Shown here: piece by piece, positions 8,229 to 27,144 of the stretch | Position numbering within the stretch: position 1 is the first letter of the stretch | How the letters are laid out: the number at the start of each line of letters is the position of its first letter | Origin: Deltaproteobacteria bacterium GWC2_65_14 | Lineage (GTDB): Bacteria > Desulfobacterota > Deferrimicrobia > Deferrimicrobiales > Deferrimicrobiaceae | Direction of reading: 5' to 3' | DNA length: 41,846 bases | NCBI GenBank assembly: GCA_001797615.1 | Contig: MGPV01000062.1 | Span: 1 to 41,846, forward strand | Notes under the pieces: model-generated | Seen by the model: only the letters and a program-made list of their open reading frames with translations | Database searches by the model: none | Told to the model about the DNA's origin: nothing | Made by a program: the position numbers and the translations under genes

Positions 8229-10916
8229 GTGAAAATCCGCCCGAAAAACATGGTGTGCAAGGTCCTGCTCGGCGCGGCCGTCTTCGGGGCCCTGTGGCTC
8301 GGAACGCCCGCGTCCGTGGGGGCCCGGGAAAAAACGGACGGGGAGGAATCGAAGGTGATCGAAAAATTTCGGCTGCGGAACGGCCTGACGGTCGTGGTCC
8401 GGGAACACCATTCCTCTCCCGTCGTGGCGGTGCAGGCCTGGGTCAAGGCGGGCAGCACGACCGAGCCGGCCTCCCGCGCCGGGATGTCCCACATCCTCGA
8501 GCATATGGCGTTCAAGGGGACCAAGCGCCGGGGACCGGGGGAGATCGCCCGCGAAGTCGAAGGGCTGGGGGGGGAGATCAACGCCTACACCAGCTTCGAC
8601 CACACGGTCTACCACATCACGATTTCCGGCAGGTACCTGGAAAACGCCATGGACATCCTGGCCGACACCCTCGGGAACTCGGTCTTCGACGCGGAGGAAT
8701 TGGCGCGGGAGAAGGAGGTGGTCCTCGAGGAACTCCGGATGAACGAGGACAACCCCGGCCGGGTGAACTCGAAGGCCCTCTTCCGGGAGGCCTTCCAGGT
8801 CCATCCGTACGGCCGGCCGGTGATCGGGTACGCGGACACCATCCGGAAGGCGACCCGGAAGGATCTCGTCTCCTACTTCACCCGGTATTATTATCCCGGA
8901 AACATGGTGCTGGTGATCACCGGCGACGTCGACCCCGTGAAGGCGCGCCCGATGATCGAGAGGACCTTCGGCTCCCTGAAGGGGCATGCCGCTCCCCCGG
9001 AGAAGCGTCCGGCCGAACCGCCCCAGAAGGGGATCCGGGTGAAGATCCAGGAGCGGGAGGCGAAACGGGTCTACATCGACCTGGGGTTCCACGGCCCCTC
9101 GATGCGGAGCCGGGAGGTGTTCGCCTGGGACCTTCTCTCCACCATCCTGGGTGGAGGACAGACCTCCCGCCTCTACCGGGAGGTGAAGGACAATCGGGGG
9201 CTGGTCGATTCCATCAGCGCCTACTCGTACACCCCCCGGGACCCCGGGATCCTCCTGGTCGGGGCGACCGGGTCCGCCGACAAGGCCCGCGAGGCGCTTC
9301 GGGAGGCTTTGCGCCAGATCTTCCGGATGGCCGCGGAGCCGCCCGAGGGGGAGGAGCTGGCCCGCGCCAAGACGGGGGCGGAAAGCGACTTCCTCTACTC
9401 GCTCGAGTCCCAGGCGTCGCTCGCGCGTCATGTCGGGTTCTTCGAGACGACCCTGGGGGACGGGGGGTTCGAGAGGAAGTATCTCGAGGGGATCCGGTCG
9501 GTTTCGGCCGCCGACATCCGGTCGGCCGCCCGCAGGCACCTCAAGCCTGGGAACCTGTCCGTTTCCCTGGTGGTGCCTCGCGGGGATGGATCGATCCTCT
9601 CCGAGTCCGAGGTAAAGGCACTGGCGGAGGAGGCCTACCGGGAAGCGATGCGGGAGACGCCGAAGGCCGGTCGCGCCCGCAACGGAACGGTCGCGCGGGA
9701 AGTCCTGGAGAACGGGATCCGGGTGGTGGTCCGGGAGGACCGGTCGGTCCCGGTGGTGGCCGTGGAGGCCGGGTTTCTGGCGGGGCTGCGCGCGGAGCCG
9801 GCCGACAAGGGGGGGCTTTCCGCGATCACCGCGGAGATGCTGACGAAAGGGACACGGGAGCGAAGCGCCAAGGAGATCTCCGAGGCGGTGGAGAACATCG
9901 CCGCCGACCTCTTGGGATTTTCGGGGAGGAACTCGTTCGGCCTGCGGGGGAAGTTCCTGCGGAAGGACCTGGAACAGGGGTTCCGCCTCTTCACCGAGTC
10001 GCTGCGCTGGCCGATCTTCCCGGCGGAGGAGCTGGAGAAGAAACGGACCGAGGTGCTCGGGAGGCTCTCGCTCCTGAAGGACGACATGACCCAGTCGGTC
10101 TTCCTGCTCTTTCTCTCCAGGCACTACGGAGAGCACCCGTACGCGCGGAACCCGCTCGGGACGGAAGAGTCGGTCCGGGCGATCTCGCGGGAGGATGTCG
10201 CGGCCTTCTACGGACGTATCTCGGACCCGCGGAACCTGGTGATCGCCGTCTCCGGGGATATCGGGACGGAGGAGGCCCTTTCGATCGTCCGGAAGGCCTT
10301 CGGCGACCTCCCCCGGAAGGAAGGGTTCGTCCCGATCGGACCGATGCCGGTTCCGGAGGCGAGGGAGATCCTGCGCGCCGAGGAGCGGCGCGAGAAGGAG
10401 CAGGCCCACTTCGTGATCGGGTACACCGGGGCGCGCTTCACCGACCCCGACCGGCATGCCCTGGACCTGCTCGGCGCTGCGCTCGCCGGTCAGGGGGGAA
10501 GGCTCTTCACCAATCTCCGGGACAGGAAGTCGCTGGCCTACTCCGTGACCTCCTTCTCCTCGGAGCAGATCGATCCCGGGTTCTTCGCCTTCTACATGGG
10601 CACCAGCGCCGACAAACTGGAAGGGGCCATCCGGGACACGCTGAAGGAGATCGAGGAGGTGGAGAAACACGGGGTCACCCCGGAGGAGTTCGAGCGGGCG
10701 AAGCGGTGGACGATCGGCCGCTACGAGATCGGGCTCCAGAGCAACCTCTCCTATGCGGACAAGATGATGTACTATGAGCTCTACGGCGTCGGGTACGAGG
10801 AAACGTTCCGGATCCCGGAGAAGATCGAAGCGGTGACGCTCGAGGAGGTCAACCGGGCGGCCCGGAAGGTGCTGGGAACCGGGCGCTATACCATCGCCAT
10901 CCTTCGCGGAAAATGA
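8229..10916 (+). CDS. Exported M16 family zinc peptidase, two-domain
   Basis: This encodes 895 residues from GTG 8229, which has GGGAGGGG 8 nt upstream and gives a normal signal peptide (residues 1-29, MKIRPKN then a hydrophobic stretch). Two tandem M16 units follow. The first carries the inverted zinc site H88-x-x-E91-H92 in HILEHMAFKGT and the usual downstream NPGRVN / HPYGRPVIG region. The second unit (from about residue 490) has ITAEMLTKGT where HxxEH should be, so it is catalytically inactive. This active-plus-inactive pairing is normal for the family, where the halves form a clamshell that degrades peptides. Location should be periplasmic. It is alone in its transcript; the pump operon downstream has its own promoter. 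Confidence 0.92.
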   Translation: MKIRPKNMVCKVLLGAAVFGALWLGTPASVGAREKTDGEESKVIEKFRLRNGLTVVVREHHSSPVVAVQAWVKAGSTTEPASRAGMSHILEHMAFKGTKRRGPGEIAREVEGLGGEINAYTSFDHTVYHITISGRYLENAMDILADTLGNSVFDAEELAREKEVVLEELRMNEDNPGRVNSKALFREAFQVHPYGRPVIGYADTIRKATRKDLVSYFTRYYYPGNMVLVITGDVDPVKARPMIERTFGSLKGHAAPPEKRPAEPPQKGIRVKIQEREAKRVYIDLGFHGPSMRSREVFAWDLLSTILGGGQTSRLYREVKDNRGLVDSISAYSYTPRDPGILLVGATGSADKAREALREALRQIFRMAAEPPEGEELARAKTGAESDFLYSLESQASLARHVGFFETTLGDGGFERKYLEGIRSVSAADIRSAARRHLKPGNLSVSLVVPRGDGSILSESEVKALAEEAYREAMRETPKAGRARNGTVAREVLENGIRVVVREDRSVPVVAVEAGFLAGLRAEPADKGGLSAITAEMLTKGTRERSAKEISEAVENIAADLLGFSGRNSFGLRGKFLRKDLEQGFRLFTESLRWPIFPAEELEKKRTEVLGRLSLLKDDMTQSVFLLFLSRHYGEHPYARNPLGTEESVRAISREDVAAFYGRISDPRNLVIAVSGDIGTEEALSIVRKAFGDLPRKEGFVPIGPMPVPEAREILRAEERREKEQAHFVIGYTGARFTDPDRHALDLLGAALAGQGGRLFTNLRDRKSLAYSVTSFSSEQIDPGFFAFYMGTSADKLEGAIRDTLKEIEEVEKHGVTPEEFERAKRWTIGRYEIGLQSNLSYADKMMYYELYGVGYEETFRIPEKIEAVTLEEVNRAARKVLGTGRYTIAILRGK

Positions 10917-10941: not shown

Positions 10942-10990
10942 GCAACACAGGTTGCACGTCTGTCTCTCTTGCAGGGTAACGTTTTGTTGC
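10942..10990 (+). promoter_or_regulatory. Two tandem dyads, probable enhancer-binding-protein sites
   Basis: GCAAC-ACAG-GTTGC (10942-10955) is a perfect dyad, and GTAAC-GTTTT-GTTGC (10976-10990) is a close second version whose centre lies about 34 bp further on. They fall roughly 130 and 160 bp before the predicted start of the sigma-54 promoter at 11085, the usual position and arrangement for an NtrC-type activator. The function is inferred from position and symmetry. Confidence 0.5.
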
Positions 10991-11084
10991 GATGGGGCGA
11001 TGCCTCGGGTCGAGACCGGAACGATGAAACCTGTATTTTGCTGTACATAAGGCTATTTTTTCGATAGTTCGTTCGTTCGGAATA

Positions 11085-11099
11085 TGGCATCTTCCTTGC
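11085..11099 (+). promoter_or_regulatory. Sigma-54 (-24/-12) promoter of the efflux operon
   Basis: TGGCAT-CTTCC-TTGC has GG (11086-11087) and GC (11098-11099) exactly 12 bp apart and differs from the RpoN consensus only at the sixth base of the -24 element. The start would be near 11111, 57 nt before the ATG of the TolC-like gene. The tandem dyads upstream support activator-dependent control. Confidence 0.7.
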
Positions 11100-11167
11100 C
11101 TTACCGATCAGGGTGATTCCGCCGGCGTTGCATCAGAACGGTCGCCGGCGGGGGAAGGGAGGTCTCG

Positions 11168-12580
11168 ATGGCCGTTCCCGAACGTTTCGTCCGCCGCATG
11201 GTCCACGCAACGGTCCTGGTCACGGCGCTGCTCGCATCGGGCGGGATGTTCCGCGCCGCGGCCGCCGGAGAAGGGGTCGATTTTCCGGCCGCGATGGAAA
11301 AGGCTCTTCGAAGCAACGCAACCCTCGCGGCGGCGGGTTTCGAGACCGATGCCGCGCGGGAGGACGCCAGGGCTGCGCGCGGGCTCTACCTTCCCCGGCT
11401 GTCCTTCGAGGAGAAGTTCGTCCGCACGAACCTGCCCGCCGAAGCGTTCGCGCTGAAGCTGAACGAAGAGAGACTGCTCGCCTCCGATTTCGCCGACGTC
11501 CGCAACTTCAACGAAGCCCCCCCGATCCACGATTTCATCGCCACCTTCACGCTGGAGCAGCCGGTCTTCGCGCCGAAGGCATGGTTTGGGCTGGGAATGG
11601 CCGCCCGCGAGGCTCATGCGAAGGGACTCGACTTCTCCCGCAGAAGGGAAGAGGTGGTCTACCAGCTGCTCTTCGCCTACCTCGATCTGCTGACCGCGAA
11701 GGAGTACCGGAAGGTGGCGGAGCAGGGGCTCTCCGACGCCCGGGAGCACCACCGGCTCGCGGAGGTGTTGGAGAGGAACGGGATGGGGCTTTTCTCCGAC
11801 CTGCTCCGGGCGAAGGTCTTTCTGGCCACCGCGGAGGCGGAGAAGGTGACGGCGGAAAACCGGGTCCTGCTCGCGATGACGGCACTCGGGCTGGCGATCG
11901 GCGAGAGGCGGGGAGCGCGGGTGGATGCGGTCGGGCCGGTCCCGGAGCTTCCGGAGCGAGGGTCGCTCGAGGGGAGGATCTCCGCCCTCCCTTCGCTTCG
12001 GTCCGACCTGCGGGCCTTTTCGCTTCGGGTCGAGAATGCGAAGGAGCAGGTGGCCTTCGAGCGGTCGGGCTACCTCCCGGCGGTGGGGGTCACGGGCGTC
12101 TACCAGATCGACGGGCAGGACGGGCCGTTCTCGCCGGACAACCGGAGCTGGAAGGTCGGGGTGGGGCTTTCCTGGAACCTGTTCGACGGGTTCCAAAGGG
12201 AGGCCGCGGTCGCGAAGTCGGTCGCCGAACGAGCGGGGGCGCAGGAAGTTTTCCGGGGTGCCTCCGACCGGGCCGCATTCGAGGTGACGCAGGCCTGGCT
12301 GGCGGTGGAGGAGGCGGAACGCCGCCTCGCGATCGCCCGGGCCGCGGCGGAAGCGGCGGAAGAGGGGGCGCGGCTGGTCAAGGCGAGGTACGAGAACCAG
12401 CTGGCCCGGATGATCGACCTGCTCGATGCGCAGACCGCCCTGAACGGCTCCCGGGCCGACGGGATCCGGGCCGCAAACGACCTGCAGCAGTCCCGGGGGC
12501 GGCTCGAGGCCGCCTCCGGGACCCTGCTGTCCTGGGCGCTGTCCGTCTCCCGGGAGAACGATGGAAAGGGGAACCCGTGA
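11168..12580 (+). CDS. TolC-family outer-membrane efflux protein
   Basis: This encodes 470 residues. An N-terminal signal peptide (to about residue 33, ending AAAAGEG) is followed by the repeated long-helix and strand pattern of outer-membrane efflux proteins: FPAAMEKALRSNATLAAAGFETDAAREDARAARGLYLPRL-type helices, PVFAPKAW, then the second half with AVGVTGVYQ, SWNLFDGFQREAAVAKS and ARYENQLARMIDLLDAQTALN. It forms the trimeric channel that spans the outer membrane and periplasm. It is the first gene of a three-gene efflux operon, and its stop overlaps the GTG of the adaptor by 4 bp. Expression is predicted to depend on sigma-54. Confidence 0.92.
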   Translation: MAVPERFVRRMVHATVLVTALLASGGMFRAAAAGEGVDFPAAMEKALRSNATLAAAGFETDAAREDARAARGLYLPRLSFEEKFVRTNLPAEAFALKLNEERLLASDFADVRNFNEAPPIHDFIATFTLEQPVFAPKAWFGLGMAAREAHAKGLDFSRRREEVVYQLLFAYLDLLTAKEYRKVAEQGLSDAREHHRLAEVLERNGMGLFSDLLRAKVFLATAEAEKVTAENRVLLAMTALGLAIGERRGARVDAVGPVPELPERGSLEGRISALPSLRSDLRAFSLRVENAKEQVAFERSGYLPAVGVTGVYQIDGQDGPFSPDNRSWKVGVGLSWNLFDGFQREAAVAKSVAERAGAQEVFRGASDRAAFEVTQAWLAVEEAERRLAIARAAAEAAEEGARLVKARYENQLARMIDLLDAQTALNGSRADGIRAANDLQQSRGRLEAASGTLLSWALSVSRENDGKGNP

Positions 12581-13791
12581 GGAACACCGGATCGGTCCGT
12601 ACCGACGGTACCCGGAAGAAGATCGCGGCCACGGCCGCCCGGGGGGCCGGGAGCCTGCTCATGGCCCTGCTCCTGGCCCTGCCGGCCGGGTGCGGCGAAC
12701 AAAAGAAACACGCCGCCGCTGAGCGTCCCCGGGTCTCCGGGGTGGAGGTCGTCCGCACCGACTCCTCCCCGCGGGAGAGAACGGCCGAGGTGACGGGGAC
12801 GGTCCGTGCCGAGAACATCGCCGTCGTCGCCGCCCAGACGATGGGGCGGATCACCTCGATCCCGGTCGCCGAAGGGAGCCGGGTGGAGCAGGGGGCGCTT
12901 CTGGCGACGATCGACGACGCCGCGGTCCGGGCGCAGCTCGCCGCCGCGGAAGGGGCGGTGGCGGAGGCGGAGGCGGGCCGGGAGGAGGCCGAGCGGGCGA
13001 TCGCGCAGGCGGAGGCGGGGAAAACGCTCGCGGTGAGGACCTACGAGCGGTTCCGGAAGCTCCACGAGGAGAAGATCGTCACCACGCAGGAGTTCGACGA
13101 GGTCCATGCGAAGAGGACGATGGCGGAAATGGACCACGAGCGGGCGCTGGACCGGCGCGCGCAGGCCTCGGCCCGGCTTGACCAGGCGAAGGCGCAGGCC
13201 GACGTCGCCCGGGCGATGCTCTCCTACACGAGGATCACCGCTCCCTTCGCCGGTGTGGTGACGGAGAAGAACGCGGACCCGGGGTCGATGGCCTCCCCGG
13301 GGATGTCGATCCTGGTCCTGGAGGACACGCGGCGGTACCGGATGGAGGCCTCCGTCCCGGAGAGCTACCTCGGCCTGCTCCGGGTCGGATCCCGCGTGAC
13401 GGTCGTCCTGGACACCCGCCCGGGGAGGGAGGTTCCCGGATCGGTCTCGGAGGCGGTGCCGCTGGTGGATCCGAAGAGCCGGACCTTCACCGTCAAGGTG
13501 GACCTCTCCGGGAAGACCGCGCTGCGCACCGGGATGTCCGGGCGGGTCCGCTTCGTGACGGGGAAGGAGAGCGTGGTGGCCGTCCCGCGCGCCGCGATCA
13601 TGCGGGCCGGGGGGGGTGACGGGATCTTCGAGATCGGCGAGGACAACGTGGCGAGGCTGGTGATGGTGAAGACGGGAGAGGCATACGGCGACCGGGTGGA
13701 GATCCTCTCCGGGATCGACCCGGGAACCCGGGTGGCGGTCTCCCCTCCGGAAGCGCTGGTGGACGGCGCCCTCGTGGAGGTTCGCCGGTGA
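12577..13791 (+). CDS. RND efflux periplasmic adaptor lipoprotein (HlyD/AcrA family)
   Basis: This encodes 404 residues from GTG 12577, overlapping the TolC-like stop by 4 bp. A lipobox LPAGC places the modified cysteine at residue 39 after a hydrophobic stretch, so the mature protein is anchored in a membrane. The biotinyl-lipoyl half-motif [20 protein letters not shown] is followed by an Ala/Glu-rich helical hairpin ([20 protein letters not shown] and onwards), the second lipoyl half ([20 protein letters not shown]), a beta-barrel domain and a membrane-proximal domain ending EVRR. It links the inner-membrane pump to the outer-membrane channel encoded on either side. The substrate cannot be read from the adaptor. 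Confidence 0.92.
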
Positions 13792-16700
13792 GCCCTGCCG
13801 GACGGGGAATCGCCGGGCGGATCGCGGCCGCCTTCATCGGGTCCCGGCTGACCCCCCTGATCGTCATCGCCTCGGTGCTTCTGGGCCTGGGGGCGGTGCT
13901 CCTCCTCCCGCGGGAGGAGGAGCCGCAGATCGTCGTCCCGATGATCGACGTGTTCGTGCAGATGCCCGGCGCCTCGGCGAAGGAGGTGGAGGAGCGGGTC
14001 ACCCGGCCGATGGAAAAGCTGCTCTGGGAGATCCCGGGGGTCGAGTACATCTATTCCACCTCCTCGCCCGGGATGTCGATGGCGGTCGTGCGGTTCCAGG
14101 TGGGGGAGGACGAGGAAAAGAGCATCGTCCGCCTGAACCAGAAGATGTTCGCCAACTTCGACCTGATCCCCCCCGGGGCGAGCACCCCCCTGGTCAAGCC
14201 CCGCTCCATCGACGACGTCCCCATCCTGGCGCTGACGCTCTCCAGCGACCGGTACGACCCTTTCGCGCTGCGGCGGATCGCGTTGCTGCTGCACGACCAG
14301 ATCAAGACGGTTCCCGACGTCTCCGAGGTCCGGATTCTCGGCGGCCTGCGCCGCCAGCTGCGGGTGGAGCTGGACCCGGCGCGGATGGCGGCCCGGGGGG
14401 TCGCGCCCGCCGCCCTTCTCCCCTTGCTCTCCCAGGCGAACCGGCAGCTCCAGGCGGGGAGCTTCTCTTCCGGGAACCGGCAGTTCCTGGTGGAGACCGG
14501 CGGCTTCCTGCGGACCGCCGACGAGGTGGGGCGGGTGGTGCTGGGGGTGCACGGTGGGCGCCCCGTCTCTCTTCGGGACGTGGCCACGATCCTCGACGGC
14601 CCTCAGGAGCCGGCCGACTACGTTTTCTACGCGACGGGACCTTCTGCGCGCGAGAAATCGCCCGCTCCCCTCCCGGCGGTGACCCTCTCGATCGCCAAAC
14701 GGAAGGGGACCAACGCGATCCGGATCGCCGATGGTGTGCTCGGGAAGGTCGAGGCGATCCGCGGGAAGATGATCCCGGACGGGGTCCGGCTGACCGTTAC
14801 CCGGAACTACGGAGAGACGGCGGCCGAGAAATCGAACGAACTGCTCCTCCACATGCTGATCGCCATCGTCTCGGTGGCGGTCCTGATCGGGTTCACCCTG
14901 GGGTTCCGGGAATCGGGGATCGTGGCGATCGCGATCCCGGTGACGCTGGCACTCACTCTGGCGGTCTTCTACCTCACCGGGTACACGCTGAACCGGGTGA
15001 CCCTGTTCGCCCTGATCTTCTCCATCGGGATCCTGGTCGACGACGCGATCGTCGTGGTGGAGAACATCGTCCGCCACTACCGGCTTCCGGAAAACCGCGG
15101 CCGCTCCGTGGCCGAGATCGCGGTGGAGGCGGTGGACGAGGTGGGCAACCCGACGATCCTGGCCACCTTCGCGGTGATCGCCGCAATCCTCCCGATGGCC
15201 TTCGTCCGCGGTCTGATGGGGCCCTACATGCGGCCGATCCCGGTGGGGGCGACCGCGGCGATGCTGTTCTCCCTGCTGGTGGCCTTCATCGTGACCCCCT
15301 GGGCGAGCGTCCGCCTCCTCTCCCGCGAGGCGGAGGAGGCCCACGCCGGGGAGGGGTGGACCACGCGCCTCTACCGGAAGACGATGGACCGGCTGCTCCA
15401 CCGGCCGGCCTGGCGGTACGGCTTCCTGGCGATGGTCGCCGTGCTGCTGCTGGGATCGGTCTCCCTTGTCGCGGTGAAGTGGGTGAAGGTGAAGATGCTC
15501 CCCTTCGACAACAAGAGCGAGTTCCAGGTGGTGATCGACATGCCCGAGGGGACGCCGCTGGAGGAGACCGCCGCCGTCACCCGGGAGATCGGGGCGGTGC
15601 TGGCGAACGTCCAGGAGGTGGTGAACTACCAGATGTATGTCGGCACCGCCTCGCCCTACAACTTCAACGGGCTGGTGCGGCACTCCTTCCTGCGGCGTGC
15701 CCCGCACGAGGCCGACATCCAGGTGAACCTGGTGGGCAAGGGCGAGCGCGACGCCCAGAGCCACGACATCGCCAAGCGGGTCCGGCCCGCGATCCGGGAG
15801 GTGGCCGCCCGGCACGGCGCCCGGGTCAAGGTCGCCGAGGTTCCGCCCGGGCCGCCGGTCCTCCAGACGCTGGTGGCCGAGATCTACGGGCCCGACTACC
15901 GGCGGCAGATCGAGGTGGCGGGACAGGTGCGGGAGATCTTCGAGAAGACCGAGGGGGTCGTGGACGTGGACTGGTACGTGGAGGACGACCAGCCCCTGTA
16001 CCGCTTCGTCGTGGACCCGGTGAAGTCGGCGCAGAACGGGGTCTCCACGGAGCAGGTGGCGGCGACTCTCGCGATGGCGGTCGGGGGGACCGAGGCGGGG
16101 CTCCTCCACCAGCCCCGGGAAAAGGAGGATGTCCCGATCGTGCTGCGGCTGCCCCGGGCCGACCGGTCCCGGATCGAGTCGCTGCGGCAGGTCCGGGTCA
16201 TCGGGCGGCAGGGAAACCTGGTCCCGCTGGGCGAGCTGGTGCGGGTCGAGACGGAGACCGCCGAGAAGAGCATCTACCACAAGAACCTGATGCCGGTGGT
16301 CTACGTGACCGCCGACGTGGCGGGGGCGGTGGAGAGCCCGGTCTACGCGATCCTGCACATCAACCAGGCGCTCGACAACCTGGTGATGCCGGGAGGGTAC
16401 CGGATGGATCGCTACGTGGCGAGCCAGCCCGGGAGCGACCAGCGGATCTCGATGAAGTGGGACGGCGAGTGGCACATTACCTACGAGGTTTTCCGCGACC
16501 TGGGGCTGGCCTTCGCGGCGGTGCTCGTCCTGATCTACATCCTGGTGGTGGGCTGGTTCCAGTCCTTCAGGACTCCGATCACGATCATGGCGGCGATCCC
16601 CTTCTCCCTGGTGGGGATCCTGCCGGCCCACGCGCTGATGGGGGCCTTCTTCACCGCGACCTCCATGATCGGCTTCATCGCGGGCGCGGGGATCGTCGTG

Positions 16701-17006
16701 CGCAACTCGATCATCCTCGTGGACTTCATCGAGCTGCGGTTGACGCAGGGGATGCCGCTCGACCAGGCGGTGATCGACGCCGGCGCGGTCCGATTCCGCC
16801 CGATGATGCTCACGGCGGCGGCCGTGATCGTCGGCGCGTCGGTGATCCTCTTCGATCCGATCTTCCAGGGGCTGGCCATATCGCTCATGGCGGGGGAGGT
16901 GGCGTCGCTCTTTCTGTCGCGGATGACCGTGCCGGTCCTCTACTTCCTGAGCGGGCGCCGGATGCGCACGCACACGCCGCCCCCCGAAGAACCGGGACGT
17001 TCCTAA
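13788..17006 (+). CDS. RND (AcrB/MdtB-type) efflux pump permease
   Basis: This encodes 1072 residues from GTG 13788, again with a 4-bp overlap. The first membrane helix ([20 protein letters not shown]) is followed by a large periplasmic loop, a block of membrane helices, a second large loop, and the terminal helices. The proton-relay pair is present in [15 protein letters not shown], and the later helix has [18 protein letters not shown], where Arg stands in the RNS position; both are typical of the hydrophobe/amphiphile-type pumps. The CusA-type Met ladder is not obvious, so a metal substrate is not favoured. It completes a tripartite pump with the two preceding genes. A weakly related repeat lies just after the stop. 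Confidence 0.93.
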
Positions 17007-25527: not shown

Positions 25528-26859
<1,332 letters not shown>

Positions 26860-26880
26860 GCAGACACCAGAGACCAAGGT

Positions 26881-26909
26881 TTTCCCGGTCCCCGGTTTTC
26901 GGCTACAAT
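26881..26909 (+). promoter_or_regulatory. Candidate promoter for the DUF2892-DUF302 pair
   Basis: TACAAT (26904-26909) is a good -10 hexamer 17 bp from a weak TTTCCC (26881-26886). The start would be near 26916, with GGGAGG at 26941-26946 before the ATG at 26953. Confidence 0.4.
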
Positions 26910-26952
26910 GGATTTCCGGGTTCCCGCGGGAAACGCATGCGGGAGGTAATCG

Positions 26953-27144
26953 ATGAATGTGGAACGATGGATCCGGGTGATCGCGGGAACCTTCGTCCTG
27001 GCGAGCCTGCTCCTGGGGCTCTATGTGAGCCGGTACTGGTTTCTGTTCACCGCGTTCGTAGGGCTCAACCTGTTCCAGTCCGGGTGGACGAACTGGTGCC
27101 TCATGGAAACGATCCTGAAAAAAGTCGGGGTCCCGGAGCGATAG
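26953..27144 (+). CDS. DUF2892 inner-membrane protein
   Basis: This encodes 63 residues. It starts MNVERWIRVIAGTFVLASLLLGL and has a second hydrophobic stretch FLFTAFVGLNLFQSG, so two short membrane helices form a hairpin. The family pattern (N-E/R-xx-R-x-hAG near the start, then FxGxNLxQSxxTxxCLhEhhLKKxG at the end) is clear. The same module is fused to rhodanese domains in YgaP. It has a conserved cysteine in NWCLME. The DUF302 gene follows 15 bp downstream, with GAGGAGG in between, so they form one transcript. A link to sulfur or thiol chemistry is suggested only by other members of the family. Confidence 0.88.
   Translation: MNVERWIRVIAGTFVLASLLLGLYVSRYWFLFTAFVGLNLFQSGWTNWCLMETILKKVGVPER

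Follow-up and report, generated by a model that had tools for sequence, protein, structure and literature searches.

The RND efflux operon described here is very likely transcribed from a sigma-54 promoter whose likely activator in the family is a PAS-type enhancer-binding protein (EBP), and the gene for this activator seems to have been lost from the genome at hand. The operon lies in the window, that is, the whole 41,846-nt stretch analysed, corresponding to bases 1-41846 of contig C62 in a 2.26-Mb draft genome of 67 contigs. Of the named organisms in the genome collection, Deltaproteobacteria such as CSP1-8 come closest to it. Adjacent genes encode an outer membrane efflux protein, an adaptor and an RND permease, the arrangement of a tripartite RND efflux operon, and the same genome encodes one RpoN and 22 near-full-length EBP domains. 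An earlier note, made from the bare sequence, had read the region upstream as a sigma-54 promoter with upstream activator sites; this reading is strongly supported by conservation of the promoter and activator array across genera and by an excess of half-sites. The features of the operon and its upstream region are listed below.

10942-10955, plus strand: distal dyad GCAAC-N4-GTTGC (GCAACACAGGTTGC), putative activator half-sites with atypical spacing
10976-10990, plus strand: promoter-proximal dyad GTAAC-N5-GTTGC (GTAACGTTTTGTTGC), putative activator half-sites, N5 spacing being enriched in relatives
11085-11099, plus strand: -24/-12 element (TGGCATCTTCCTTGC), predicted sigma-54 promoter, with 9 of 10 consensus bases and exact GG-N10-GC spacing
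11168-12580, plus strand: tolC-like outer membrane efflux protein (OEP, PF02321), with 52-68% identical orthologues in 15 family genomes
12577-13791, plus strand: RND periplasmic adaptor (TIGR01730, HlyD_D23)
13788-17006, plus strand: RND permease (ACR_tran, PF00873), under the cut-off of every named pump model

The intergenic region comprises 251 bp, from the end of an M16 peptidase gene at 10916 to the start of the tolC-like gene at 11168. As the earlier note had claimed, a -24/-12 element with exact spacing (TGGCAT-N5-TTGC) is separated by 68 nt from the tolC ATG at 11168, and transcription is predicted to start near 11111. When the intergenic region was shuffled 20,000 times under a first-order Markov model, the -24/-12 pattern arose by chance in 0.085% of cases. 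Because TGGCAY-N5-TTGC occurs seven times genome-wide versus four times for a reversed control, the match alone is not proof of a promoter, and conservation is the stronger argument. Among the 16 family genomes with a tolC orthologue (15 others plus this one), 11 have the box where it is expected, in most cases as TGGCATCCTCCTTGCC; a second collection, in which several records come from the same organisms, was also examined for it. Within the box, positions 0-4 and 8-14 are identical in all nine aligned family genomes and the bases beyond vary, and a BLAST search of relatives with the intergenic DNA gave short matches only and no useful alignment. The box is retained in same-family relatives where most of the intergenic sequence is not. 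A close variant, TGGCACGCTTCTTGT, in which the last -12 base is T, accompanies five half-sites in G025, a genome of a sister family. Two family genomes (G007 and G021) have kept tolC and lack the sigma-54 box, the half-sites and also the EBP; in two others, G002 and G006, the EBP is encoded and half-sites lie close to tolC, but the place where the -24/-12 box is conserved shows no clear match. In the tolC leaders of the latter two (L040 and L042), GTTGC/GCAAC sequences stand near the start, as if the promoter had been lost and the operator kept.

The two related dyads of the earlier note are both present, with centres at about -163 and -128 relative to the expected start, in agreement with the 130-160 bp originally estimated. 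In shuffles of the 251-bp region one dyad arose in 0.06% and two in none of 20,000. Across the 2.26 Mb the dyad pattern occurs at three places, two of them here, 34 bp apart; the third, a perfect dyad at C8:8737, was rejected for lying inside a pilQ-like coding frame. In relatives the conserved operator proved to be a cluster of GTTGC half-sites with preferred N5 and N7 geometries rather than the dyads as such: N4 spacing recurs in only 2 of 21 related regions, and the N5 dyad at 10976 is the best fit to the conserved geometry. Eleven tolC upstream regions contain 30 half-sites versus 4.7 expected (maximum 13 in 2000 shuffles), ten ygaP regions contain 19 versus 2.6 expected, inverted GCAAC-N5-GTTGC pairs number eight versus 0.11 expected, and 12-bp direct repeats of the form GTTGC-N7-GTTGC nine versus 0.27, figures that, the related genomes not being independent, show enrichment rather than a clean probability. 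Paired half-sites recur across orthologues roughly 80-200 bp upstream, and the pump operon of this genome carries both the -24/-12 element and the GTTGC array. The distance from the proximal GTTGC to the -24 box is 99 bp here (G000) and 101-104 bp in G005, G009, G012 and G015; few or no exact GTTGC half-sites lie close to the tolC promoter in G004 and G020.

These data bear on the idea that a sigma-70 repressor or some other regulator acts at the GTTGC sites and that the -24/-12 match is coincidental. Such a coincidence would fit the weak genome-wide over-representation of TGGCAY-N5-TTGC and the direct-repeat geometry of the array, which is atypical of Fis-type dimers. Against it, the 15-bp box is conserved across genera with constant spacing to the array, and box and array recur together at ygaP, which makes the idea highly improbable.

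The earlier note had expected an NtrC-family activator encoded elsewhere in the genome. Relatives do provide a candidate, a PAS-EBP, and the assembly of this genome is without that gene. In G008, a 457-aa EBP with PAS, AAA+ and Fis-type HTH domains is encoded divergently to tolC, and the half-sites between the two genes overlap the EBP start codon. Apart from G008, 14 family genomes encode orthologues that are 69-75% identical, those of G006, G010 and G017 being partly truncated, and a 66% match over the AAA-HTH part was found in G024 of the sister family. The orthologues share an invariant pair of cysteines in the PAS domain and nearly the same DRTTLWRKMK helix. The PAS-AAA+-Fis EBP is the likely activator of the pump in the family. 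An EBP fragment at L071 (L017-like, 65% identical) was not taken as cognate, the tolC on the same contig having no sigma-54 site.

The operator over the EBP start codon is itself conserved. Leaving G008 aside, 12 orthologues have a complete start, and in all of them GTTGC falls at about codons 5-8 and has a GCRAC-like partner at N5 spacing. The Leu codon within this operator is always TTG, a codon accounting for 7.4% of Leu codons in these genes, and because this rare codon is always used, the DNA of the start region is itself probably under selection. A TATACT-like box just upstream of the EBP ATG is consistent with autoregulation of a sigma-70 promoter by the EBP. In the G008 locus (L154, 5973-6140), one operator array seemingly has two roles, as the upstream activator site of tolC and, for the divergent EBP gene, as the operator over the start codon.

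A second predicted target is a YgaP-like gene adjoining the EBP gene. A second sigma-54 box, mostly TGGCAYCC..TATGC, lies between the EBP and ygaP genes in ten genomes and in G002; in G005 it precedes the next gene, which encodes an FmdB-like zinc-ribbon protein. GTTGC or GCAAC half-sites are found about 80-130 bp before the ygaP sigma-54 box in most genomes. In Geobacter-type genomes a ygaP-like gene lies just behind the same RND pump, and the region upstream of tolC there is AT-rich with TTGACA/TATATA-like sequences and no sigma-54 box. The best functional argument for one activator of pump and ygaP is that the two units adjoin elsewhere and are separate in the family, yet share one motif. 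The regulon looks small, comprising the pump, ygaP and probably the EBP itself, since pattern searches in 24 genomes returned hardly any promoters other than those of tolC and ygaP above the control rate. One match in G001, a single GTTGC before a sigma-54 site of a TlpA-like gene, was rejected as chance in view of the lack of a cluster. Three further observations were made alongside. The AT-rich sequence 5' of Geobacter-type tolC (L074-L097) is TATATATA-like and suggests a local repressor operator; an ArsR-like coding sequence precedes a tolC homologue from Nitrospirae (L078); and a second consensus -24/-12 site (TGGCACGGGCGTTGC) occupies positions 266-280 of the window, 38 nt before an ORF of 116 aa (319-669) with no Pfam or NCBIfam match, with GTTGC/GCAAC half-sites nearby at 192-276.

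Promoter and EBP do not always occur together. G001, G010 and G011 possess the EBP and lack a tolC orthologue; the EBP could still serve ygaP in these genomes. Because the promoter occurs without a detectable EBP orthologue in this genome, in G023 (74% complete) and in G025, the pairing is not absolute, and as most of the genomes are draft assemblies, absence weighs less than presence. For the present genome, synteny points to the place from which the EBP is missing. The window is collinear from 8 to 35 kb with G009, G004 and G020, and in these three the EBP gene lies between the gene for a Cys/Met-metabolism PLP enzyme (window 25528-26859) and ygaP (26953), where the window has the following features.

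26860-26952, no strand assigned: 93-bp gap at the syntenic place of the PAS-EBP gene, collinear on both sides with G009, G004 and G020
26953-27144, plus strand: YgaP-like transmembrane protein (PF11127), regulon partner in relatives, without a sigma-54 promoter here

Within the gap, neither an EBP remnant (by tblastn) nor a sigma-54 box nor a half-site was found. No orthologue of the PAS-EBP is encoded in the assembly; the best match, at 51%, covers the AAA and C-terminal part only. This genome thus seems to have lost the EBP gene and the ygaP sigma-54 promoter and to have kept the pump promoter. A TACAAT-like box is left before the ygaP-like gene after this seemingly clean loss.

Two alternatives turn on this absence. 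The first is that the sigma-54 promoter is real and has always been served here by a different one of the 22 EBPs, the PAS-EBP controlling only ygaP from a similar site. The intact promoter and half-sites in a genome without the PAS-EBP, and likewise in G025, agree with it. We nevertheless regard it as unlikely: PAS-EBP and tolC have one operator region in common in G008, the EBP gene, ygaP and tolC all carry the same unusual half-site, none of the 19 placeable EBPs of this genome falls into the orthologue clade (clade support 100/100), and the DRTTLWRKMK recognition helix is absent from those own-genome EBPs whose C-terminus was read. The 1.5-kb flanks of the own-genome EBP loci contain no GTTGC cluster. 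The second alternative, somewhat less unlikely than the first, is that the promoter is a relic, the activator having been lost recently and the pump being silent or read from upstream. The clean absence of both the EBP and the ygaP sigma-54 promoter, and the TACAAT-like box before ygaP, speak for it; against it, the -24/-12 box and both dyads are intact within an intergenic region otherwise not alignable to relatives by BLAST, which suggests continuing constraint or very recent loss.

The preferred reading, in which the PAS-EBP is the family activator of a sigma-54 pump promoter and was lost here, implies the following mechanism. Sigma-54 RNA polymerase would transcribe the tolC-adaptor-RND operon from the element at 11085-11099, and an EBP would have to bind the GTTGC array, whose dyads at 10942-10990 lie about 130-160 bp upstream, and make contact with the polymerase through looping. 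Within the family the PAS-AAA+-Fis protein with two invariant PAS cysteines would play this part; it would also activate the YgaP-like gene adjoining its own, and it probably represses or tunes itself through the GCRAC-N5-GTTGC operator over its start codon. In this genome, another of the 22 EBPs may drive the pump promoter, the switch may be recently orphaned, or the EBP gene may be present and unassembled, and replacement, recent loss and an unassembled copy fit the present data alike. A more extended history is possible, if tentative: an efflux operon, sigma-70-like in Geobacter-type orthologues, may have been converted, in a lineage of uncultivated deltaproteobacteria, to an EBP-driven sigma-54 regulon in which pump and ygaP were split under one activator controlling itself at its start codon, after which this genome lost the activator and rewired the pump promoter to another EBP.

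Starting from a hunch about raw sequence, the analysis, which is comparative throughout, arrives at a defined and testable small regulon, with an activator family, a binding motif and two targets. It also describes an RND pump that switches between sigma-70-type and sigma-54-type control across related lineages, and a natural case in which a sigma-54 promoter and its enhancer seem to have outlasted the gene of their likely activator. Literature searches, with subscription papers mostly out of reach, returned no description of a pump/ygaP/PAS-EBP regulon, and neither such a motif nor such a pump appears in the main texts of surveys of sigma-54 and of response regulators in Desulfovibrio.

The NtrC-type site is GCACC-N5-GGTGC. 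It shares the 5-5-5 inverted geometry of GCAAC-N5-GTTGC and differs in its half-site, and the array described here also has 12-bp direct repeats.

An efflux cluster under sigma-54 control is already known from the EtpR regulon of Aromatoleum aromaticum EbN1, where the cluster is part of p-ethylphenol catabolism and the regulator is encoded between its two target clusters (PMC4630880); the system proposed here differs in having an EBP of the PAS type and ygaP as a partner, and its predicted targets include no catabolic genes. In Myxococcus xanthus, CorSR/CorR provides an example of metal-tolerance genes controlled by an EBP, with several putative sigma-54 promoters. CorR, however, is the response regulator of a two-component system, and a P-type ATPase is encoded in its curA operon (PMC3707914), whereas a PAS sensor and an RND pump are predicted here. 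Lastly, the YgaP-family gene of Escherichia coli (ygaVP) is controlled by YgaV, a member of the SqrR/BigR family that is sulfide-responsive and de-repressed by tributyltin (PMC9774250). Since YgaV responds to these compounds, reactive sulfur, redox or organometal stress is a reasonable guess, by analogy, for the signal of the EBP. YgaV itself is a repressor acting on a sigma-70 promoter (PMC9774250), a logic opposite to the sigma-54 activation proposed here.
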